Assembly: GCF_905475395.1 (NCBI RefSeq)
Contig: NC_058339.1
Location: 87,740,520 to 87,804,519, forward strand
Source of the DNA: Chrysoperla carnea
Taxonomy: Eukaryota > Arthropoda > Insecta > Neuroptera > Chrysopidae
DNA: 64,000 bases
Direction of reading: 5' to 3'
Positions 2,196 to 44,000 of the stretch are shown piece after piece (within the stretch, counting starts at the first letter, position 1; every line of letters begins with the position of its first letter). The notes below the pieces were generated by a model. It had not been told where the DNA came from, searched no databases, and worked only from the letters and a program-made list of their open reading frames with translations. The translations under genes were made by a program, and so were the position numbers.

Positions 2196-4187
2196 GTAGA
2201 AGATCCAAAAAGTCGAGAAGTAGATGTAGATATCGATGAGTTATTAGATATGGATAATGACGACCAACGCCGAAGGCATTTACAGGTAAGCATTACTATT
2301 AATTAAATTTCACTATTTTAATTCCAAAATAAACTTAATTTTTAAGACATTCAGAACTGCATAAATATCAAAACGAAAAAGGCAATACTTTCGGCATAGC
2401 TAATAAGATTTCATCAGAGAAGAATTTCCATATTATAAATTGTAGTGTTTTATTTTCAAATCTTCCTGGTGATAGTTTATTAACCTATCTCGAAAGTTCT
2501 GCTTTTCAATTTTAATATCAAAGTATCATCGAAGTTAAAAAATTCTTAATTACAATAATATACTTTTCTTAGGGTAGGTTAAGTTAGGTTAGAATGGCTG
2601 TCCTGGCGTGCGACACACTTAGACCATAGAGTCCGTTGTGTTACCGAAAAAGGGTTGACCCATCCCCCGCCACTACTGCATGAACTACTTGGAGCTGTTT
2701 AAGAACAGTAGGAGAGCTTTGACGTCGACGGACTTTAGGTAGGAGAGATCCTCAAAGAGAGGCTGGCTCAATTAAGTCCATCTCCTCATGGCAAGAGCTA
2801 GGCAGTGGCAGAGAAGATGACACATTGTCTCCTCGTCCTCACCACTGTGACAGCTCCTGCAGTAGTCGTGATACACTACCAGGCCCAAGCGTTCAGCATG
2901 CCTGCCGCCCAACCAGTGTCCTGTAATAGCCGCAACAACTTTGCAAACAGAGGCCCTTGAAAGTGACATAAGATATTCGGAACGCCTACGATTGTACTCA
3001 GACCATATCTGTCTTGTAGTACCACAAGTACGTTCCTCCCTCCATCTAAGAATCGACCTTTTTAAGATATCCTCTTTGAGGAGGAACTTGCAGTTCGCAA
3101 ATGGAACTCCCGGATATTTATTGATGCTTGTGTCCGGCAGCATTGTGCCATTTCTGGCAAGCTCGTCAGCTTCACAATTTCCTGGAATGTGGTACGTACG
3201 GCAGTCCTGTGCTACCTTTAACGTTAGATAGACTGAGCTGAAGGAGTTAAGAGCTGCTTGGCTATCGGTGAAGATTGTAATGTCCCTGCACCTAAGTGTG
3301 TTCAGTCTTATACATTCACATAGCTCATGAATAGCCATCACTTCCGCTTGATACACGCTACAGTGATCCGGCAGCCGAAAATATAGACGCATAGCAAGAT
3401 TTTCAGAGAAGATCCCACAACCCACCCACCTAGGATAGGTTGCATCATTTATTATAAATGCTAAGCAGAGTTAACAATAGTGCAACCCATCTTAGAGTAA
3501 TAAAAATGCCTGATTGTGAAATTAAATTACTTTCATCTGTTTTAGGATTTACTGATCGATGCCAAAAAATCATCAAACGATGTAAAAGTAAGTAAAAATA
3601 AAAAAACTAAAATTTTCATTAAGGATGTACGAGGAATGATTGATTTTATTTTATATGAAGTTAGACTTAGTCTAAATCAATTCTGAAAATTCAAGAGGGG
3701 GGGGGGTTATTTCCCGATGATTAAATTGAAAACAAAAAAAAACTCGTTGTGCTCAACTAATTAAGGATGTATGAGCACGGTATTGGAGACATAAATTTTA
3801 AAAAATATATATTTTTAATTTTGATGATGAATTATTGACTTGACAATATAAGACGAAAATTATGAATAAAATTTTTCGATATCTGAAGTCATTTTCAAAA
3901 TATCGAAAATTGAAAATTTTGTTTAATTATTTTGCCTTCGATATTTCGAAAACCAAGGGAGATATCGAAAAATTATATTCTTATTTTTCGTCTTCATTCA
4001 TGAAGTTATGACAAGATACATCATCAAAGTTGAAAATAAGGTACAAATAATTTCAACCCTAAATCTAAAATTGCCTTGGCGCTCGTACTACCTTAACAAA
4101 AGTTATCAAACATAATTTTGTAATATTTTCATTTATATTTTTCAGAGATTTATAAATGATCTCCTAGCAAAAGCAAAAACACTCTAA
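2196..4187 (+). CDS. PPP1R14: PPP1R14-family protein phosphatase 1 inhibitor, 3' exons (5' end outside window)
   Basis: Three exons join in frame: 2196-2285, 3546-3587 and 4146-4187, all phase 0, each with a GT donor and AG acceptor. They encode the last 57 residues and end at TAA 4185-4187. The peptide contains VDIDELLDMDNDDQRRRHLQ, then DLLIDAKKSS and RFINDLLAKAKTL. Known: vertebrate PPP1R14 proteins (CPI-17, PHI-1, KEPI) carry an acidic IDELLEL helix, a basic stretch and a C-terminal ELLAKL helix in this order, and inhibit PP1 or myosin phosphatase when an N-terminal threonine is phosphorylated. The part with that threonine is not in the window, so inhibitory competence cannot be judged. 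A LINE remnant in reverse orientation lies in the 1.26-kb intron, and a foldback MITE in the 558-base intron. Inferred: cytosolic regulator of actomyosin contraction, as in the family. Confidence 0.8.
2580..3425 (-). pseudogene. Non-LTR retrotransposon (LINE) 3' fragment with RNase H remnant
   Basis: On the minus strand an open stretch of about 217 codons (2772-3425) contains an RNase H-like block: a YQAEVMAIHELC segment, then TIFTDSQAALNSF with the conserved Asp-Ser, then IPGNCEADELARNGT. A C-terminal cysteine/histidine tail follows (CRSCHSGEDEETMCHLLCHC). Known: this order is typical of the RNase H plus zinc-knuckle tail of I/R1/LOA-group LINEs. The reverse transcriptase and endonuclease are absent, so the copy is 5' truncated and dead. 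It sits in the PPP1R14 intron in opposite orientation. A related fragment lies at 31935-32375, with shared 'aatggtacaatgctacc' and 'gcgaactgcaagtt' type segments. Confidence 0.75.
3755..4097. repeat. Foldback MITE-like element, copy 1
   Basis: The two ends are imperfect inverted repeats: the left starts near AAGGATGTATGAGCAC and the right ends near GGCGCTCGTACTACCTTA. Internal blocks also face each other, such as TTTTTAATTTTGATGATGAATTAT against ATCATCAAAGTTGAAAATAAGG, and two 'atatttcgaaa'-type blocks. Similar sequence recurs at 24905-25245 and partly at 46150-46310. No coding capacity. It lies in the last PPP1R14 intron. Confidence 0.65.
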
Positions 4188-4518: not shown

Positions 4519-7287
4519 GGATTTTTAAGCCAAAAATATATATACGTTGCAACATCGTTATTTATTGAAACTGTTTTGTCATCTTTGGGTCATGTTAAAG
4601 CTAATAAAAATTACAATATTTCATATTCAAAAATAATAATACTTCCTTTTGAATACAGGCCAGGTTATTACAATCAAGATCATTATTTGTAAATAACCCA
4701 AGAAAATATAATTGGCCTGAAAATTGTCAAAAACAAAAGTGCTAAATATTATATATATGCTCAAACGTCAAATGAAACTTGGCAACACTTTAGACTTAAG
4801 ACACCAATATAATGGCACGGTAAAAACACACGTTTGGTCGCTATAACAAACCAGATTTGATGACTACCACTTCATAAACGGGTATCATCATTGCTTCTGA
4901 TTGGTTAACATAGCCAAATTTGTGTGCTTTTCATGCGAATGTAGTGGGGTCGTGATAGTCAGAAAGACAAAAGAGCACTTATACACTCGTTTACAAAATT
5001 CAATTGAATGTTAATTTAACGATTTTGAAAGCACTTTCAGTTTTATTATGGCTGGTAGTTTCAAATTTGGGACTCGGACACACCATAGGGTTGCTGCTTT
5101 CATTCTATCTTCATGTTTTATGAAAAATGCACCAGAATTGTAAAAATAGAAGTTCGAATGTTATCTCGTATTAAATTTGTGACAGTACTTACAGAAACGA
5201 TGAGCATTAAAGAAAACGTGAGCACATTATGTGAATAGCCAATGACGAGCTAATCCAAGCAACAATAATGGAGGCACAATATTCAAATGGTAAAGCACTT
5301 TCTTTTCTGTACGTCATGGTTCTAGTCTACATGCAACCAGCATAAAATAAGTACCGAGGCCCTAAAAATTTTACTTATATGTCTTCAAATTTATAGAAAT
5401 ATGTACTTCTTGATTTTTAAAACATTTCTATTTTGTACTGAATAATTTTAGCATCGAAGAACAAGGTTTATCACCCTTAAAGTGTAGTATCTGGATTCGA
5501 GCTTGCTCGGTATTTTTTTTGGTAAATCGTGTGTTGCTTAACAACGCCATCAACTGAAACCTAACTTTGGTGTTGCAGTGTCGGTAAAGCAGTTAGTTGC
5601 TCCCAATTTACAAAAATAATAGTATTACTACTCACCAATAGATGGCAGAAAGAGTCATATTTTTCAGTTTTTACTGAAAACACGGATAAAACAACGTTAC
5701 CAATTAATTCGAACAAAATAACTTTTTATAAGGCAATAAATTACTGTACTTATCCAAAATAATATTTAAATCGGTTCAACCGATTTACTGATTTGCGAGT
5801 TTGTATAAATAATGATCTTCGATTCTTAACTTATACTAAGTTAAATAAAAAATATAATATTTAATAATAAAAAAAATACAAAAATATTTTGAAATAAAAT
5901 GAATGTTAAACATTTAAAAAAACAAAATTAATCAAAATATTTGAATTTTAGAATACATAGGTTTAGTATCTCACTCAAAAAAAAAAGAAAAAAACCAAAC
6001 TTCATATATTTGTGTTTTTGTAATAAAAGTTTATAAAAAAAAACAAACAGAACTTTTAGATATTTATAAAATATTATATAGTAACGATTTTTATAGCTTA
6101 ATGTGACTTTAGATTTAGAATATTTAATATGAGCAAAATGCATTATATAAAAATCTAATATGTTTTGAAAGCAGAATTTTAATTTTTGTCGAATTGACGT
6201 TCTAATTGATATTAATTAACGATTCCCGAAGAATTTTGAAAACTACAATTAACACAGTCCACCAAAAAAAAAAAAACATCTTAATGTATTAATTAAATAA
6301 CACTAAAAACGTATTTCTTATTGAATTTCAACATGATTTACCGTAAAGTTTTTTTTAACTTGGCGTTTGACTTTGTTTTTCCGTCATTTTTAGGGAAGTA
6401 TATCTAGGGGAAAAGAAGTTTAAAGAAATAAATATCGTCCGTTCCTTCTTGTTGCGGCGTATTTACCAATAAAAATTAAAAGTCATTATTTTATATTTTT
6501 GTTATTGATTTTTTGTTAATTTTAACTCAAAATATTTTGAAATGTAGCGATATCACACATTTGATATTTTTCGTTATATTTACCAGTAAAACCAACTTAA
6601 AAATTTTACGAAAGTTGTTATCTCAAAGAAAATAAATTGAACGTCTATTCCATATTTAAAAAAATACAACTGAACGTCTATTCCAAACTTTTTTTAAAAC
6701 ATTTGTACGCAATATAACATATAAAATAATGCAAAAATCCTCCAGTTTCAATAAATCCAAAAAAAATATTTATATTTGAATTTATAATTTTATTCAGTGT
6801 GTTATTGTGACCCTGCTGCATATCTCGAATTTGTGATAGAATGGTAGATTTTAATTATTATATAATTACCTTTTCGTAGAGTTATTTTAAACCTTAATAA
6901 AAAAAATATATAATACCAATTTAAAAAAATTACCGTTTAAAAAACATTATTGTAGACAAACATGAAACAAAACAAAACAAAAAAAAAACTTCAACCATAT
7001 AATGTGTAAATTATTAACAACGAAAATTATGTTAACAAAATATGATGACATACCTTTTTTTACATGAAAATAATTTATTTGTTAAATAATGAAAAAAAAA
7101 ACTTTGTACGTTAAAAATATCGAAATAAATAAATGTATTATTATATTTTATTTTTGTTTCTTTTTATTTTATTTTATCACTGAGTTAATCATAGACTTAC
7201 TTTTGATAAACATAACCAAACGCACAATAATCCAAATGGATCGATTCAGTGTAAACTAGTAAAAATGTCAAAATTGTAGTAAAACTG
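4519..7287. other. Intergenic, no gene seen
   Basis: Very AT-rich sequence between the PPP1R14 3' end and the 3' end of CFAP52. Short open frames (for example 5928-6143) are low-complexity Lys/Phe/Tyr strings produced by A/T runs and match nothing I recognise. No convincing splice-site pairs around conserved peptide were found. Confidence 0.5.
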
Positions 7288-31934: not shown

Positions 31935-32375
31935 TAAGACAAATTGAGGCGAATCATTCCAATACTTTAGAACATTCCAGGAAATTGTGGAGTCGACGAG
32001 ATTGTTAGAAATGGTACAATGCTACCGGAAGTATCAATACACATACAGGAGTTGCATTTGCGAACTGCAAGTTACTCCTCAAAGAGGGTATCTTAAAAAA
32101 GGAAAATTTTAGATGAAGACAGGAACGTATTTGTGATACTACAAGACAGATATGGTCTGAGGACAATCGTAAGCGTTCCGAAGATCTTATATCGTTTCTA
32201 AGGGCCTCTATTACAGGACACTGGCTGGGCGGCAGGCACGCTGAAAGTCTGAGCCTGACAGTGTATCATGACTATTTCAGGAACTCTCACAGTGGGGAGG
32301 AGGAGGAGAAGACGCTCATCTTCTCTGTCACTGTCCATGCCACGAGGAGATGGACTTACTTACACTAGTCAAAGC
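31935..32375 (+). pseudogene. LINE RNase H fragment, degraded
   Basis: Plus-strand reading gives IPGNCGVDEIVRNGTMLPEVSI and further on DTGWAAGTLKV, with stops and frame shifts between. It matches the RNase H end of the LINE at 2580-3425 (there IPGNCEADELARNGTMLPDTSI). Located about 300 bases after the TBC1D15 stop. Dead and truncated. Confidence 0.7.
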
Positions 32376-32399: not shown

Positions 32400-33005
32400 A
32401 TAAGTAAATGTTGCTGCCTTTCATCGCATGCGCTTTGTCGTACATGAGTGTAGACATCTAAAGCGATTTCATTCAGTCAACTTCAAACAGTCGACATTAC
32501 AAACAATCGCGGTTTCCTGGGATAATTACTACTGTATTGCTTACAGCGGAACTTTGAAGGGATAAAATAAAATATCTTCAGAACACTCGATTATACTTTG
32601 ACGTTATCTGTTCCCAATACTAGAAGCTTATCTTCCCACTTAAAATTGATCTTTCTTAGGATATCATTCAGGAGTTTAAGTCTAGTAAAATTGTTCAATT
32701 TAGTTGATTAGGTTTTTTTTTACCAAATCAGTTAAATGATTTGATTTTCCTTTCATATTCTTCAAGTCGAATTTTGCCTCCTAGATTTCGAGTTTCTTTT
32801 CTTCTGGCATATTTATAATTCTTAAAAGATGGGCTTTACGTTTTGTCTTTCTGAATTTAACCTGAGGAACATTACACAAATTTAAAGCAAGATTAACAAT
32901 TCTGAAGGAAAAAATTCTTTCAGAACAGTAATGATATAATTTTATTGCAATAAAATGCTTGAAAAATTCATTAGGAAGCTTTCAAGGAAATGCGGCCATT
33001 GTTTT
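32400..33005. other. Intergenic, nothing recognised
   Basis: No exon-like reading frame, RNA gene or clear repeat was seen here. Confidence 0.4.
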
Positions 33006-33093
33006 AAGAGTGTTCTTTTCTGTGTGAATTCGTTTATGTTTAAAAAAATGCATTCAGCATAAACGGATTCACACTGGGGGGAATTCTTTTTCA
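33006..33093 (+). repeat. Hairpin, outlying copy of the 39-42 kb hairpin family
   Basis: The arm GTGTGAATTCGTTTATG (33022-33038) pairs with CATAAACGGATTCACAC (33058-33074) with one U-G wobble. The stem can be extended outward because TTCTTTTC can pair with the G-run GGGGGGAA in plus-strand RNA. The loop is about 19 bases. The same arms, the G-run and a trailing 'tttttcatcaac' are shared with the cluster 6 kb away. Confidence 0.8.
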
Positions 33094-33349
33094 TCAACAT
33101 TTCTCGTCCAAAATTCGTTAACCACAGGTAAGTTCTCTATTTATAAGTTTTTGATACACATTTATAGCTAAAAATTAGTTCACCTTATTTTTAAAAAAAT
33201 TTTAAAAGTTCATCTCGTATATAAAAATTAATAACATTCATTTATTCACGCTGATCGATGGAATATTTCCATAGGGTGAATTTAGGATCTCGATTGAGAA
33301 AATTATTCTGTTAGTATGTACCTATCTTTAGGGGCATGTAGATGTTAAA

Positions 33350-33755
33350 GGTGTATTATCACGCTGACGCTTGACGCTGAGTTTGAACGTCAAATTAGGT
33401 CACGTGTAGTCAGTTTCATGCTACCATCTGGACAAAAAACTTAGAAGCGTCACACATTATTCTCCGCTAAAATTTAAATATTTAACTATGGAATAGAAGA
33501 TAAATGATAAATCTACAATTGATAATCATATTCAGCAGCCATTATGGATATAGAACGAGATTAAGGAATTACTTTTAGTGTGTATATCTCGAGATATTAA
33601 CTTTCAATATTAATAAACTTTTTTGTCGCTCATATTTACGGTTTAACGGTGACACTTGATGCTGATCGTAACTCTATTTTTTTTGGCTAGGTGGAACCCT
33701 AATTTGACGCTCAAAGTTGGCGTCAATCGTCATTATGAGGCTACATCTTAAATGT
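33350..33755. repeat. Foldback element rich in GACGCT motifs, family G copy 1
   Basis: The left part (ACGCTGACGCTTGACGCTGA, then AACGTCAAATTAGG) faces the right part (CCTAATTTGACGCTCAAAGT, then GGCGTCAATCGTC) as inverted arms of about 80 bases. The right half recurs at 39020-39215 and a longer relative at 40367-40829. At both loci it lies close to copies of the hairpin family. Confidence 0.65.
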
Positions 33756-34688
33756 AAAGGTTAAATAACTCAAAAATTATTATTTTTATAGGAATTTATT
33801 TTTTTTATACATATTACTTAACACAGCCATTTTACAGTTAAGTAATTATTTTTTTACAAATAAAAACTTTCTCGCAGGATCTTAAATCCGCATATCTTTA
33901 TATATACAGTAGCTTCGCAACCATTTTAATGCGAGTCACCGCGAACGATCGTAATTATTACTAAAAACATGGGAATAATTGATAATTTACAAACCAAATT
34001 TACAATAAAACAGCTAAAATATACCGAAAGGTTTATGGCCACAAGGTTGGATGTAGCCTTACCGTTTAGACATTGTCAAGTTTTGATAAAACTACAATGG
34101 ATTTCTAACATAACGCAAGAATTTGGTTCATAAATTATCAATTTTCCAATATTTCATTGCTAGTTACACAGTCGCGGAGAGAGCCTAATTGTTTTTATAG
34201 ATGATTTTTAATATTAAAAAAACATTGCTTTTACACATTTTAGCAATTCACACAACATGATCTAGAGTTCTTATATTTTTAGACAATTTTTGATCTACAG
34301 AAAACAGTTCTACATAAATTTTTTGTGCTACTTAGATCTTTTTCCCTAATAAAATTGATATGATTTTTTTTCTCATATTATGAACAGTTACTTAAAAATC
34401 ATCTATATAGTAATGTCCGCATACGTCGTTCTTTTATTTAAAATATTCATCACTCAATAATTTGATAAATTAGTCTGGGGTTATATTTAAGCCAATTTTA
34501 TAATGATTGGAACTAGTTATGTAGTATCATATTAATCTATAAGTGTTCTGAAATCAGAGACGTGTAAACGTGTTCTTTGGCTTCAAAAAACACGGAGCTG
34601 AGCAGTCACTGTTCCTTCTTACATTCTTCATAGTCTGCGTTTATTCGATTTTAATACTAAGAAAGATTATCTAACGATAGAAAAAAAA

Positions 34689-35012
34689 CTATACACTAGT
34701 ATTTTTGACAGGTGACCGTGTTTTATTTTGTAAAAAGTGGCTAGCACAAAAGTCATTGTCATATGTTACAAGTGGAATAAAGATTTAATATTTAATAAAA
34801 TGAGTAAAAAACGATCAAATCGAAAGTGTTATTTTGTTAATTGTGAAAACACACTCCGTAATAATCCAGAATTGCAATTTTATCGTTAACCTAGATATTC
34901 CACTGTTTACAAAATAAAATAATGTTACTTGTAACATATGAAAATGACATTTCTGCTAATCACTTTTCACAAAATAAAACACGAGATGGCTTACTACTTT
35001 ACTAGCGTATAG
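34689..35012. mobile_element. Foldback element with ~85-bp inverted arms enclosing a THAP start
   Basis: The left arm runs from CTATACACTAGT (34689) through GTTTTATTTTGTAAAAAGTGG to ATATGTTACAAGT (34773). The right arm runs from ACTTGTAACATAT (34927) through CACTTTTCACAAAATAAAAC to ACTAGCGTATAG (35012), its imperfect complement. The enclosed 34800-34889 segment begins with ATG and codes for the first part of a THAP-type zinc finger. Inferred: a short non-autonomous relative of a P-element/THAP-family DNA transposon. Confidence 0.7.
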
Positions 35013-35246
35013 TTGTCAAAGCGCATAGATACACAATATTTAACAGAAATTTTTGTTTACAATCTTGTGAACTATTGTTTAAAAGTAAATCGCGAGTTAA
35101 GTTTTGATAAGTTTCCAAATTGTAATGAGGAAATAAAATGGCTAACAGAAGACAAGTTTGGATAGAACAAACAAATTTCGTAGATAAGTGTGTGTACTAA
35201 AGTATGTTCTGTTCATTTTAAAGAAGAAAACACCAGATTATGTATA
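34800..35246 (+). pseudogene. THAP-domain (P-element-like) relic
   Basis: Two pieces of a C2CH zinc finger are visible. The first, 34800-34889, reads MSKKRSNRKCYFVNCENT with the opening Cys-x4-Cys pair. The second, about 35100-35246, reads FDKFPNCNEEIKWLTED and then VCSVHFKEE, the closing Cys-x2-His of THAP domains, with stop codons between. Known: THAP domains bind DNA and occur in P-element transposases and in domesticated THAP proteins. The stops show it is not functional. Confidence 0.7.
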
Positions 35247-38086
35247 CTGAAGTAGGTATTTTTTGTCTTTTCATTCAATGAAAAAAATCAACTGTAGCAA
35301 GTATGGTTTACATATTTTTTTACTCGTGGCGCTGTCATCTTAGCGTTAAAATCGATGTGGTAAAAAAAAAGATTCGACGTATGTGAACTTTAAATATAAC
35401 TATTGTATGTTTCACGGTTTTCGTTTTCTTAATTTATGCCTCAAGATGATCAATAATTTTTTTAATAAAAATTTGAAGATATGCATAAAATTGATTAAGT
35501 TTTAATACTAATTTCATAACAATATAACAATTTTGTTTTATTATCTAATGTTGGTATTGGTAGTTAAAAGATTAAAGAATAGTAAGAGTTGTTTTTTTAA
35601 GCTTAAGATTAAATTGGTTAAAGATTATTTACTAATATAATACATAGAATTCGTTTGATTTTTACATTTATTTTAAAATCTAAGAGAAAAATCAAAAAGT
35701 TTACTTTTCACTTTCCAGTACAAAATATATTTGTGCTTACACTTATGCAAGTGCTATTACATTTGTGTATAGGGTGCTCTTGAAGGTATAGATGAAATTA
35801 TATTGATAATTTTCTGAATTATTAATTTTTTTTAGTGTCCGAAAACCATAGAGAGTGTCTAATCGCGCCTATTTTATTCGCTTAAAGTAAAAGAAGATCA
35901 TTCTGATTGTCATTTTTGCAGATTATTTGACAATGATAAATAAATATAAATAGGCAATCATAGATCTAATAAACGTTTGGCTAACATTCAGAATTTTTTT
36001 TGGCGTCTTTAATATAACTGATTCGAACGTAACTGGTTAGCCTTCTTCTTCGAAGAAGAAGAAGAACCCTAAAACAAAGAACGGAATTCTACATCCTTAA
36101 GCCACATCCCTTAATATATTTGCAATAATTATTGTGTGCGGGAATTATTGTATTCATTTGAGCATCTTGGGCGTGCTTACATGATGTCGACGCTCCCTCT
36201 CAGAATCATTAGGTTTTTTTTGTAGAAATAAGCCCATTATTTATTAGTCTTCATGTTGTTTTCAACTTTGGTTTGTATTTACAAAATTAAATAGACACTA
36301 AAATATCGTTGAAATGTCCTAAGAAAATTCACTCATCCCAAAATCATAGAACGCCACCACTCATCGGGACCGTTCACCGCTTTTAATCGGCCAAATGTAG
36401 CTAATGTGGTATTTTAAATGGAATAAATAATGAGAGCTCCCTATTAAGAAATAACTTGCTCCAATTACTTTTACTTCGTTTTCTTTAAAAAATATTCTTA
36501 AATATATAATTATTTTTAATTCTTAATATCCTTTAATCAAAATTATGTGTCAATTATTGTTTTATTTTTGTATTAAAATTTGATATGAATTTTTGGTATT
36601 AACAATTATTATTATTTTTATCTAACTAAGAAAACATAAAATATTATAAAAAGCAGTTTAAAAAACAGAAAATTTTTACATTTTTTTTTCGGTCTACAGT
36701 TTTAAGTTTTGAGTTCGTTCTTTTTAAAATAAAGTACCCTTTTTTTTCTTATAAAAATATTATTAGTTGTATTGAATAAATATTTAAAAAAATCATTGTA
36801 GGCCGTACATGTAGAAAATACAGTAAAAAATTTCGTTGAAAGCACTTATGTTTTGATTTTTTTTTTAAGTTTGCAAAAATTTAAAAATTTTTAAGTTTGC
36901 AAAAAAAGTAAGAAAGTCTTTAAAAAGAATAGAACTTATTCTTATAATGTTCGCAAATAAAATTAAGGTGATAGGATAGATCGATGACGAAAATGTGCTT
37001 TATTACGTTATGTTTCAACTATTTGTCAAAAACATGTTAAATAAACGTATAAAACTTGTTATTTAATATATCTGTCATCGGATTGCAACATAAAAAAAAA
37101 TAAACAATTTTTCCTAATCTTTAGATCCGTTTTTCACATGAGTTTAAAAAAAAATATTGCGCAAATAAAAAAATAGAAGCCATCTTTATTTGTTGTCTAT
37201 TCATTATCATTATTATTTATGTACTATATGCTCAAAATTCTTATTACTTATTAAACAGGGAAGTCTGGGGTAGGAAAAAGGGATAGAGATTCGGGAATTA
37301 TATTTAATATTTTAGAATTGTGTTGGATTTTTGTGCCACATTTGTGTGTATATTGGCTGTGTCTAGATGAACTGTGAGCATTCAGATCGGCTGAACGCAG
37401 CCATTATATCCTCTTATTTAGTTATAGATATTATTTCTTTAACTGTTACATCTTATCTTGCCCTAAAATCACAGAAGGATTGAGCTATGTAATGTTAATA
37501 CTGACGTATTCTATTAAATAGTATAATAGAAGTTAATACTGATTTAATATATCCTTCTCTTCAGAGCCGATAAACTTATTTGAAAAGGATGTAGCAAGTG
37601 AAGCTTACTTCAACCTCTATTAAGGAAAGCACAAAGTAGATAGGTACATGTTCAATGACATTTTGCGAGCGAAGTATATTTCGGGATAATGCTATAATTA
37701 ACAATTTTCTCGTTTTAAGGGTGTGTTCCACTAAGCGTTCGCAATGCAAAAAATATTTCTTCTGCCGTTCCACAAAAGCGGTCACCACAAAGCCGGTTGC
37801 CTCATCTTGGGATCACTGAGAGTTGCCTAATAGTTAAGCCTACCCATAGGAAATATTTTATATATTGCCTCACCCTTTCGAGAACTGACATACTTGCGAT
37901 CGGTTAATAATATAGAAACCTTGGATAAATATGGGATAATTAAGGGACGCATTCGTTCTAAACAGGTACATACTTATCGAATTCCTTACGTATAACAGTT
38001 AAGAAAATAAATTCTTGCTAACCAAATTCTAGGATATCTTATAATGTTGATTGGAAAATAGTGTATTTTTGTAAGGAAAGCTATTG
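35247..38086. other. Intergenic up to the GT92 3' end, no gene seen
   Basis: AT-rich. The minus-strand frame 37576-37788 (70 codons) has no recognisable domain. A GAAGAAGAAGAA microsatellite sits near 36050. No clear poly(A) signal for GT92 could be singled out among many A/T runs. Confidence 0.4.
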
Positions 38087-41000
38087 TTAGCTACGCTTTT
38101 GTATCGTTTTACGAAAAATCATAGGTTTAACAAGAACTGGTTTTTTTGGTTTGTCTGGTTTCTTTGGTATATCAGGTAAATTACTTAAATGGCATTGATC
38201 TTTTAATTTCCAATATTGTTTGGTGACACGATCAACTAATCGTGTTTTATAACGATATGTTGTATGATCGATAACCGAAGACGTTTTCACACAATCATCT
38301 CCACCAAATTCACATACACGGTAATGATGTAAGGAGGCTGTATATGCTGGCATATTTAAAGTTCCCTGGCCTAGAAAAAACAAAAAAAATAAATGTAAGT
38401 TAAATTATGTAAGTAACCGAGAATTAAAACGTTAAAAGTTTCAAATTAAAAAAAAAAACTTTCGTTAAAAGAAAAATAAAAGCTGTTGTAGTACATACCT
38501 GGAACAAACTCCCATACAAAATGATTTCCAGCTTCAATGACTAGCTCTGGCCGACATATATATTTACTCCGTTGTTTATGTGGATGTAATTTAGTACGTC
38601 GTCTGGTTTTTTTCAATGTTATCATTGATGCTTCAACCTTATCTTTAGTTGTAAATATCGATACATCATCCTCCCATTGCAAATAAAAAAATATATTTTG
38701 AAATGAATATGATCCTGTGTTTTGTGTATTCATACGTGTGCTCATCCATCTGAAATATAATATTTTAACATAAGTCTTATATTTATTTTAAGGTTATTCG
38801 AGCATTTTACTCAAGTGAGAATAATTAGAGATTCTCACGACAGTATCATCTTAAGGCTGTCGACTAGTACATTTATTATTTTATTTTTTGATAACTCTGT
38901 ACCTATTATTGTAATTACGGGTTAATTTGGTTGAGTTTGTCAACTATAGAGGAGTTGGTTAGATTTTGAAGTTTTTAGCCCTTGCGTTTAAAAATGATAC
39001 ACTATTACCGAAAACGAAGATATTTAATACTAAAAATTAGGTTAGAGAATTACTTTTAGTAAAAATATTTGGAGATGTCGACTTTCAATATTGATTAATT
39101 TTTACAATTTAACGTTGACGCTGGATATAATTCTATTTTTTTCAGCTAGGTGGAAACCTAATTTGGCCCTCAAAGTCAGCATCAAGTGTAATTATAAGGT
39201 TACATCTGTAGGTTTTAGGAATTGCAGTTGTGATTTTAAAAGTGTTATCTTCACTATGAATCCGTTTATGTTTTTATATTAACACGGCATAAACGAATTC
39301 ATAGTGGGGATAACACTTTTTTTACAACATGTTTCTACAACTTTTAGGAGCCGCAGTCGTGGTTTTAAAAGTGTTATCTTCACTATGAATACGTTTATGT
39401 CTTTATATTTGCACAGCATAAACGTATTCATGGTGGGGGGAATTATTTTTTTACAACATGTTTCTACAACTTTTAAGGTATAACCGCATGGCTCCTTCCA
39501 TCTGCAGCCGGACCAGACGCAGTAACGCATTATAGACAACGTTTGCATTAGATTTCATAAAAGCAGTATACTGCGTCAGACAAACGCGTCTGACGCAGTG
39601 TAGGAATCATACCTTTGGAAAGTATAGTCGTGGTTTTAAAATTATTATCTTCACTATGAATACGTTTATGTCTTTATATTAGCACAGCATAAACGTATTC
39701 ATGGTGGGGATAATTATTTTTTTACAACATGTTTTTACAACTTTTAGAAAATATAGTCGTGGTTTTAAAAGTGCTATCTTCACTGTGAATCCGTTTATGT
39801 TTTTATGTTAGCATAACATAAACGAATTCACAGTGGGGAGAATTCTTTTTCATCAACATTTTTCTAATTGTATTTTCATAGAACAGGTACCATAAGAAAT
39901 TCTAAGAAGAATAAGAACAGAAAAATGATAGAAGAAAAAGAATAGAAGACTCGCTAGAAGATTTAAAATACTTTGGCTACGACTTGAAGAATGTTCTTTT
40001 CAGTGTGAGTTCGTTTATGTTGTTAATATAACATAACATAAACGAACTCACATTAAGAAGATATCTCTTGCATCTACAGTTTCCTGCTTCAAATACCCTT
40101 GGCACAAGTTAGTTTTTGTTTTTTATTGGCATTTATAGCCAGTAAGTGACGTCAGAAGGAAAGTGGGGATACGTAGTTAAGAATCAATGCTTTTGTGGAT
40201 ATTTTGTTTAAAGTTTTGTTTTCAGTGTGAATCCGTTTATGTATTAATTTAAGCATAACATAAACGGATTCACATTGTGAATAACTCTTTTTCACCAACA
40301 GATTTTCTTGAAATTCATTATTTATAACGGTATTTTTATTTGTGTATACTTTTAAAGGTTCGATTTCATGGTGATGCTTGACGTTACCTTTTAGCGTCAA
40401 ATTTGATCATATGGTATAATTTCGATCAAAGTGTCATCTAGATAAAAAGCAGCGTCAAATTTGATCGCCAAACGTCAAGTTTACTTATCAATCTATGTTA
40501 TTCCCTAACCTATTTGGATCAACATCAAATAGTTATTAACATAATATGTTTTTTATTATAATGTTTTATAAATAATTATTAAATAATATATCTAAACAAG
40601 TGCAACTGCCTGTCTGAAGTATTCTAAAACTGCTTCATAATATCCATTGTAATTCAATTCGATATAACATCTCTAGCTTCAAGTTAATGATACCAGCATT
40701 AATTAATTGAAGCTCAAATATTTTCAGCTCTGTCGCTGCCTTTTAACTAGATGGCACTTTGATTGAAATTATACCATGCTATCAAATTTTACGCTAAAAG
40801 CTAGCGATAAGCGTCACCATGAAATATTCATCATGCGTCAATATTCGGCGCAATGATTTTAAGAGGATTGTTTTCAGTATGAATCCGTTTATGTCTTCAC
40901 ATATATAATGGCATAAATGAATTCATACTGTGGAGGATTCTTTTTTGTCAACAGTATTTCTACTCTTAATTTCTGGATACAGGTAAATTTATTTGTTACG

Positions 41001-44000
41001 TTTTAAATTTTTGTGTTTAAATTGTAGGATGTTTTTGGGGTTTATAAAATATTTAAACTGATTAAAATTTAGGAGGCGTTATTAAAATCGGATAAAGCTA
41101 AATAATTTGTTGAGGCCAGACACCACGCAGAAAGTCCACAGCTTCTCCGCCGGGATCTCTCCCAGGATTGATGGATCCAAGGTTTGGGACCCGAACATTT
41201 CGAATCTAACCCCTACAAAAATTTTTGTAGGTGCAAATAACGTATGTGGAGGTTTTGTCATCCTCCATACAGGCTTTACAAGTGGGATCATTAGAGATCC
41301 TCGTGTTATGAAGGTGATAGCTCAATCGACAGTGTCCTATCAAGAATCCCACCACCCTTCTCAACTGTGCTCTAGTAAGTTTCAGACAAGCACAGTCGAA
41401 TGGCCTAGCTGTGGGTATACACAGTTTGGCCTACCGCATGCCCTGTGCAAAGTCTCAGTCATCAAGATGGGCTTGTCGTAGCCATTCTTTGATTCGGTAA
41501 ATTACAGAACATCTTGCTATGGAAATGACGGGTTCAGGTGAAATGGCGTTTGTGACGACCTCTCTGGTGCCAACGAGTCTTCTACTTCAATCCCTTTAAC
41601 GCCAGGGTGACCCGGAATCCAGATCAGCCTGACTGTGTTGTTCAGTGTCAGGTGATTCAGCTCCTCAAAACATTCATAGACCATCCTTGACTGGAATATT
41701 GTCGATTTAAGGGCCCGAATAGCGACTATCTGAGAAGATGATGATAAGTGCTCCACTGTAACCTTTTGAGTTACAGATCTGAGCACTTCTCAGTAGAGCG
41801 AAGATTTCTGATTGAAAAACCATCGCATATTGGCCAAGAGGAAATGCTGTATGGATAATTTGTATGTCTATGGTGGTTAATGGCTAATTTGTATGTCTAT
41901 GATTAATATTTGTTATCTATGATTTGAATACATGATCTATATCTATGAATCATTGGAGGGAACAGGGAACTGATTCATATAGAGGCCATGTTGTAATGAA
42001 ATCAAGAATGTTTTCTGAATAAATACGTAATTAAACTCGTAGACGAACACGAAAGTAAAGAATATATCTCATATTTTACCGTAATATTCTTCGTACAATG
42101 CCAATGTTCGGTGCATGATTGAAAGAGGGTTGCTTTCTGTATGAACTCGTTTATGTCTTCACATATATAATGGCATAAACGAATTCATACCAAGGAGAAT
42201 TCTTTTTTAACAACAGTATTTCTACTCTAAATTTCTGAATGCAGGTAAATTTGTTTGTTACGTTTTAAAATTTTTGTTTTTAAATTGTAGGGTTTTTTTG
42301 GGGCTCATAAAATATTTTAATCTGACTAAAAACTCGCGTTTAAGTTTTCTCAAGTTTTATGAGAAATATGTGGCAAATATTAGAAAAATACGAGCAATCT
42401 CCCCAAGTGAAACTATTTTTAGTTTCACTTGTGGAGATGTGGTTTTATTAACGAATTAAGCGAATTTACTGCACGGTTAATTAATGGTGTGACATGGATT
42501 TTTTCGTATGGGACTGAGGTGGAAAAGAATAGAGGAGAACAATACATTTTTAATGTTTTCTTTGTGTTTTCCTTCAAGGCAGGGAGGTGCAAGTGTACTC
42601 CCTTTCTTCCCTCTCGCGGGGCGCATGTCATCAAAGGAAAATGACAATTACCCTGGTGGAAAAAATATTTGAAGAAAGAATAAGTCATAGAAACTCTGAA
42701 GAAGTCTTAGGAATTCTGAATAACTTTGAATTTCTCAACGTTTTTGGACTGTCTTATTAAAACTTAATAAGTCTGGATAACTCGGAATTAGACAGTCCAA
42801 AAACGTTGAGTTATTTTGAGTTCCTAAGACTTTTCAGAGTTTCTAAGACTTATTCTTTCTTTAAATATTTTTTAAACCATAGTACATTAAAATGATGGAT
42901 GGTCACTTGTATTAAGATACACTAGCTCGAACCGTGCGGAATTCCGCTCCTGTAGTTACCGTAACGCGCTACCCTGTACCCGTGGCCAAAAACAACAACA
43001 GTTGTTTCACTGTGCCCCACCCTCTCTATTTAACTGTCAAATTTTCGTCTCTTGGGGTAGGTTCTTTTTGGACGAAGTAAATAAATTAAGTTATTGATTG
43101 AATAAAGAAAATTCAGTGATCTTACTTACTCAATTAATTCCATAAGAGTATCATTAAATTTGGGCATAATATATTCATCTAAATCGATAAGTGCCAAATG
43201 TGAATATCGATACATGTTCCGATATAAACAATCGTTTAACGCTGAAAATAAACCTTCTGTACGTATTTCGATTTGTGAGACCATATCCAATTGCCATGGT
43301 AAAATTGTAATGCCAATTGATGAATTATTAATATTGGCAGCACGTTGGTACTCTTTTAATAAGCAGCCCACTTCTGGACCAACGGTGTGATTATAAAATG
43401 TAAAATGCGTTACACCTAACAATGAATTTAATTCCAAAAATTCTAACATTTTTAATGCCTGAAACATAAACAAAATAATTAAAGAGAATATGGAGCAGTA
43501 TCTCTGTGAACGTTATAAAGTCCTAGCTCTGGAGCCCGTGACAGTAAAATTGCTCTTACACGTATTTCGAAATTTCGCATATGAATCAATACTATTTAAC
43601 GATAGGTACAATATGGACTAGGTGTGCCAGGATTTATCTTGGAAGAAATATTTTTGCCAGGTTTTTCTTTTTTTACGGGTGTGACAGATACTTTGGTCAA
43701 ATTTTGAGATCTCTCACCAAGATGTTTCGCAAGTAAAACTCAAAACGAAGAAATTTAAAAAAGTAATTCTGTCATAAGGGTAACAGTTTATTGTTATATA
43801 TTAAAATCGGTGTGACAGACCTTTCTGTTACAATAAAAGCTGTCACACCAAATTTTCCTGAAAATAGATAAAATTTGTAATAAAATGGTCTCTTAAAAAT
43901 AAATTATATTAAAGTGTACACTTTTAATTATTAAAAATATAAAAATTTATAAAAAATATTTCTACCAGGGTAAACCCTGGCACACCTAGTCCATATTGTA

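Follow-up and report, generated by a model that had tools for sequence, protein, structure and literature searches.

Do the similar hairpins crowded along part of chromosome 3 (C3) of the lacewing Chrysoperla carnea form a small-RNA locus, and, if so, which transcripts might their RNAs act on? The window analyzed here is a stretch of 64,000 nucleotides (C3:87740520-87804519), in which an initial annotation, made from the letters alone, had described a plus-strand cluster of eight microRNA precursors or hairpin small interfering RNAs (siRNAs). We found that these hairpins belong to a family of at least 23 copies whose two arms both read as the linker between C2H2 zinc fingers, one arm in sense and the other in antisense. 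Our preferred explanation, to which we give a probability of roughly 0.7, is that this family is derived from zinc-finger coding DNA and would yield guides, resembling microRNAs or siRNAs, that act on many C2H2 mRNAs.

Results

A hairpin family in four clusters

The C. carnea genome (559 Mb), the one genome searched, was scanned in five whole-genome DNA searches with copies from all four clusters as queries, and a covariance model was applied to the window and to seven fetched stretches. The searches gave at least 23 hairpin copies, counts at BLAST sensitivity being lower bounds, and no long match beyond four clusters: cluster A in the window (9 copies), cluster B at C3:72.80 Mb (4 copies), cluster C at C4:75.64 Mb (7 copies, arranged tandemly with a unit length near 130 bases), and cluster D at C3:8.95 Mb (3 copies). 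All 23 copies share the orientation of the other members of their cluster. Flanks are common between copies, some of which stand in tandem units of 129 to 131 bases. A looser pattern, CGTTTATG-gap-CATAAACG, occurred at 18 places in the genome, against four for the reversed control. Twelve of the 18 lay within the clusters, one was a fragment close to cluster B, and five were elsewhere. A weak hairpin fragment (23.5 bits) at C3:72.821 Mb (positions 5217-5262 of fetched stretch L022), approximately 17 to 19 kb from cluster B, is possibly a decayed member of the family and was left out of the count.

Both arms read as C2H2 linker codons

In copies such as A4, the 3' arm reads in frame as CAT AAA CGN ATT CAY A(C/G)T GGG GAG, that is, H-K-R-I-H-[S/T]-G-E, the C2H2 linker, and the 5' arm carries these codons in antisense. 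A Q codon precedes HKRIH in some copies, as it does in LIQHKRIHTGEKPF from a real lacewing gene, whereas many copies have drifted beyond HKRIH. The complement of the 5' arm codes for HKR[ITV]H in all 23 copies through 12 different nucleotide strings; the 3' arm codes for HKR[IT]H in 19, and the changes to HKQIH or to a stop (4/23) are confined to this arm. When the 3' side was compared with one zinc-finger gene, scores were 30 to 53, against shuffle means of 17.5 to 19.5, and exceeded the best of 200 shuffles in every copy except C4, which only equaled it. In several copies, the linker homology does not end with the stem but continues in the 3' flank.

The same codons are abundant in the genome. 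CATAAACGNATTCAYACNGGNGA, which encodes HKRIHTGE in the codons of the hairpins, has 450 sites, out of 688 for HKRIHTGE in all codon forms, and the HSGE form in hairpin codons has 230 sites, two of which are hairpins of the window; reversed-pattern controls gave 0 in both cases. Of the 450 sites, the first 100 lie on chromosome 1 (C1); among them are 47 arrays, and 42 of 50 gaps between close neighbors are multiples of 84, the length of one finger repeat. All six site loci fetched were open frames with C2H2 zinc-finger arrays. A coding exon was considered for the hairpins themselves and rejected: hairpin lengths vary by single bases, and stops in the linker frame lie around the 3' arm in 18/23 copies. 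The 3' arm of A8 (window 42174-42207) agrees at 31 of 34 bases with a different linker subtype, HTKEKSF, from a zinc-finger gene, a hint that sequence may have passed between the hairpins and zinc-finger genes.

Most predicted guides fit zinc-finger sites

To compare guides with targets, 21 bases of each 5' arm were set against 56 distinct strings among the sites listed (the first 100 of each pattern, of 680 sites). Fifteen of the 23 copies had no mismatch to a listed zinc-finger site; D2 and D3 were perfect over 21 bases without wobble, and the other zero-mismatch copies had one to three G:U pairs. One mismatch was found for A8, B2, C1, C5, and C7, and two for C2 to C4. With 300 shuffles of each guide, no score better than 5.0 was reached. 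In one gene with 15 linkers, A5 fits 14 within a score of 4. Taken as a guide against one zinc-finger gene, the 3' arm scored 11.5 or worse. Like the hairpin RNAs (hpRNAs) of Drosophila, these inverted repeats share homology with the genes that they would target, though less strongly for the 5' side and for cluster C.

Copies vary in codon phase

Parsimony placed 27 of 35 changes in the 15 core columns, counted over both arms, at third codon positions. On two different trees, 17 and 23 of 3003 column choices gave a bias as extreme; for the 5' arm alone, 7 or 10 of 3003 did. By hand count, 18 of 21 changes in the 5' arm are synonymous, compared with approximately 23% expected from a simple model that gives transitions a weight of 2 (binomial 2.6e-9, relatedness ignored). 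The outer stem and loop, checked in the same respect, showed no codon phase. Mean changes per column were 0.93 to 1.4 in the core and 2.05 to 2.82 outside it. Variation between copies faces third codon positions in the conserved motif that would be the target, as in families of the miR482/2118 type.

Fold, pairing, and strand

The plus-strand folds of A1 to A8 had z scores of -6.6 to -11.9 against dinucleotide shuffles, and none of 200 shuffles was as good for any of the eight. The minus strands also beat shuffles (z scores of -5.3 to -11.9), more weakly than the plus strands in most cases, and over the whole family the plus strand folded better in 22/23 copies. The more constant coding of the 5' arm (HKR[ITV]H in 23/23 copies, against HKR[IT]H in 19/23 for the 3' arm) also favors the plus strand, since the antisense guide of a minus-strand RNA would come from the complement of the 3' arm. 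The alignment of 23 copies (22 distinct rows) gave a consensus precursor with 33 pairs over 35 columns per side and a loop of approximately 15 columns, a hairpin with arms of approximately 22 bases like that of an animal microRNA. Paired cells amounted to 91.7%, compared with 87.3% in shuffles (0/500 as high), and pairing fell to 41 to 56% when the partner was shifted by one to three columns. The compensating arm changes pointed out in the initial annotation (ATACG/CGTAT, AGTTCG/CGAACT, CTGTGAA/TTCACAG, and the outer stem of its third copy) are all present in the sequence, and both sides have changed in 11 of 33 pairs, a value reached by 4/500 shuffles. G:U cells outnumbered A:C cells by 111 to 35 (17 versus 13 column types), which is weak evidence because a few shared columns dominate the count.

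The ends of the 22-base products were predicted from the geometry of Drosha and Dicer cutting. Primary transcripts of animal microRNAs can carry a CNNC motif past the basal cut; here, CNNC lies 16 to 18 bases beyond the predicted 3p end in all copies but B2 and C7 (21/23; shuffled mean 1.95, largest 7). Uniform orientation, kept pairing, and the plus-strand folds support the structural part of the initial annotation, as CNNC may do if the predicted cut site is right; that annotation had missed the zinc-finger identity of the arms. A known microRNA was rejected: Rfam gave no match at gathering score in the window, and a text search of the literature with six arm strings found none. Below the gathering score, 27 Rfam matches, mostly to microRNA models, fell within 32900-42400; the strongest of them reached 42.1 bits, where the gathering score is 88.

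Cluster A and its host gene

All eight hairpins first annotated in the window are real and in place, their outer limits beginning 2 to 4 bases before the annotated starts, but the count is nine, since A0 (33004..33093, plus strand, like the others) had been overlooked. A0 is matched by the covariance model at 79.2 bits, has a predicted 5p product at ~33018-33039, and folds at -36.6 on the plus strand and -21.4 on the minus strand. A1 (39236..39323; predicted 5p ~39250-39271 and 3p ~39288-39309) folds at -42.4 and is followed by A2 (39365..39452; 5p ~39379-39400; fold -34.0), A3 (39636..39723; 5p ~39650-39671; -38.2), A4 (39765..39852; 5p ~39779-39800; -34.6), A5 (39985..40072; 5p ~39999-40020; -36.9), and A6 (40207..40294; 5p ~40221-40242; -35.1). 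Farther along are A7 (40859..40947; 5p ~40873-40894; -34.3) and A8 (42121..42209; 5p ~42135-42156; -31.4). Against listed zinc-finger sites, the predicted 5p products of A1 to A4 and A7 have no mismatch and one G:U pair, that of A6 has no mismatch and two, and that of A8 has one of each. The arm motif said to be shared by the eight copies is exact on both arms in five; the fifth, seventh, and eighth copies are off by one base on one or both arms. The pattern CGTTTATG-loop-CATAAACG occurs eight times in the window, in seven of the eight and in A0, but not at all in 100 shuffles.

A1 to A8 are flanked by two minus-strand exons of a GT92 gene, the downstream one at 38446..38784 (Pfam PF01697, E 2.1e-07) and the upstream one at 43126..43509 (PF01697, E 6.9e-22), which cover neighboring parts of the PF01697 profile. 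These eight hairpins therefore lie antisense within a GT92 intron, as had been annotated, and A0 is outside the span of the GT92 exons seen. A RIO kinase exon stands downstream of cluster C on the same strand, and this cluster is probably located in a RIO kinase intron.

In clusters A, B, and D, splice-donor-like words follow the predicted 3p end at a distance of 40 to 53 bases (window 33128, 40983, and 42245; fetched stretch L020 6372, 6804, 6996, and 7841; fetched stretch L053 7741), as GTRAG in six copies and AGGTAAA in two more. They may mark a spliced host transcript. Splice regulation as the common function of the hairpins was rejected, because such words accompany only 8/23 copies and none in cluster C.

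The window holds other repeats. A separate 102-base inverted repeat (40363-40464 and 40724-40825, 83% complementary) with AGCGTCAAATTTGATC units, to which words near 33360-33450 are similar, is probably a foldback transposable element. A nested long foldback at 42649-42884, whose arms measure 52 bases (88%) and 47 bases (79%) and whose inner arms are 27 bases apart, does not match the hairpin model. Open frames at 2772-3470, 32117-32368, and 41517-41789 resemble, by eye, RNase H pieces of a retroelement without long terminal repeats (non-LTR), and one of these RNase H-like frames stands between A7 and A8.

Discussion

The hairpins could work as follows. Each would be an inverted copy of approximately 35 bases coding for the linker x-Q-HKRIH-[ST]-GE-x-x-F, and the plus strand would be transcribed as part of host transcripts. 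Cutting by RNase III enzymes, either Drosha with Dicer-1 or Dicer-2, would release guides of approximately 22 bases from the 5' arm, which would be loaded into an Argonaute protein; in flies, near-full pairing of the stem favors Ago2. The loaded guides may then repress many C2H2 zinc-finger mRNAs, several sites being possible in each, and selection to fit coding targets that vary mainly at synonymous positions would place the variation between copies at third codon positions. The genome itself shows the hairpins, how they pair, how many there are, that both arms read as linker, and that most copies have nearly fully complementary zinc-finger sites; from these we infer transcription, processing, Argonaute loading, and silencing.

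Several results weigh against guides of this kind. With the 3' arm alone, 122/3003 column choices were as extreme in third-position bias, the strictest permutation for codon phase gave only ~0.006, and counts over copies are not independent because the copies are related. The complement of the 5' side, compared with one zinc-finger gene, was above the best of 200 shuffles in 13/23 copies, equal to it in four, and below it in six, so that 10/23 were not above. In B2 alone, the minus strand folds better, by 1.1 kcal/mol; the covariation measure that counts further pair types was matched by 62/500 shuffles; and the CNNC motif may be inherited, because part of the 3' flank is linker-like. Cluster C fits less well: the guides of C1 to C5 and C7 do not fit any linker of the zinc-finger gene that has 15, and C2 to C5 code for Arg at a place occupied by Thr or Ser in most listed targets. 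This Arg form has only two sites in the genome, which C2 to C5 match with one or two mismatches. Finally, guide position 2 is opposite G, as a wobble, in the best match of 21/23 copies.

A zinc-finger fragment might have been inverted once and spread by local and distant duplication, leaving a foldback without function in which pairing and linker identity are remnants. The common flanks, the tandem units, and the linker homology that continues past the stem would all follow from such a history, which we regard as unlikely though the most serious competitor. Against it, core columns change less than those outside, third-position bias appears in the core only, and 11/33 pairs have changed on both sides; plain decay would not respect codon phase.

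Transposition of a miniature inverted-repeat transposable element (MITE) or another foldback family, suggested by the inverted-repeat form and the four separate loci, is very improbable, given the copy number and the cluster form. The initial annotation held that hundreds of scattered copies would point to a MITE; the genome-wide count instead gave at least 23 copies at four loci in 559 Mb, with one orientation per cluster. We also hold it improbable, if somewhat less so, that this is an ordinary microRNA family whose 3' arm (5'-CAUAAACG..., seed AUAAACG) acts on 3' untranslated regions, the zinc-finger match being secondary. Positions 1 to 8 of the predicted 3p product are indeed almost invariant (departures in 0, 0, 1, 0, 0, 0, 1, and 3 of 23 copies). 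The 3' arm, however, is sense to zinc-finger mRNA and scores poorly as a guide against the one such gene compared. The HKQIH and stop changes occur in this arm only, while the 5' arm keeps HKR[ITV]H throughout, and codon phase would be left unexplained.

Known systems offer partial parallels. Plant miR482/2118 is described as a multi-copy family directed against a conserved coding motif of nucleotide-binding site-leucine-rich repeat (NBS-LRR) genes, with its variation facing third codon positions of the targets (PMC6394340, PMC6032283). The lacewing family likewise has many copies and would be directed at a coding motif conserved throughout a very large group of genes; it differs in its animal host and in a putative target, the C2H2 linker, that can recur many times per mRNA. 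Drosophila hpRNAs, for example the tandem hp-CG4068, are presented as inverted repeats for which an origin from the target genes has been proposed, with tandem copies in a common transcript numbering from 9 to 20 between species; their complementarity is typically to a single gene or a few (PMC10317233). The lacewing hairpins are also inverted repeats resembling their putative targets, some in tandem, but their motif has hundreds of sites. By analogy, they may work like miR482/2118 while being akin to fly hpRNAs in mechanism. In mammals, miR-181, miR-188, miR-199, and miR-23 are reported to act on repeated C2H2 coding regions of related zinc-finger mRNAs (PMC6242934). The lacewing hairpins, by contrast, look zinc-finger-derived, and most have near-full complementarity. 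The four mammalian microRNAs are general ones that act through seed matches. Among the papers listed in our literature searches, we found no published animal case.

Few classes of animal transcription factors are as large, or change as fast, as the C2H2 zinc-finger genes. We lean slightly toward a wider view, in which a dedicated small-RNA superfamily born from zinc-finger coding DNA polices a C2H2 expansion across the genome by tracking synonymous variation in the linker, as an animal counterpart of miR482. If this is true, guides to a stretch common to most fingers would be a simple answer to the problem of restraining that expansion, and the codon-phase tracking of plant miR482 would have arisen independently in an animal.

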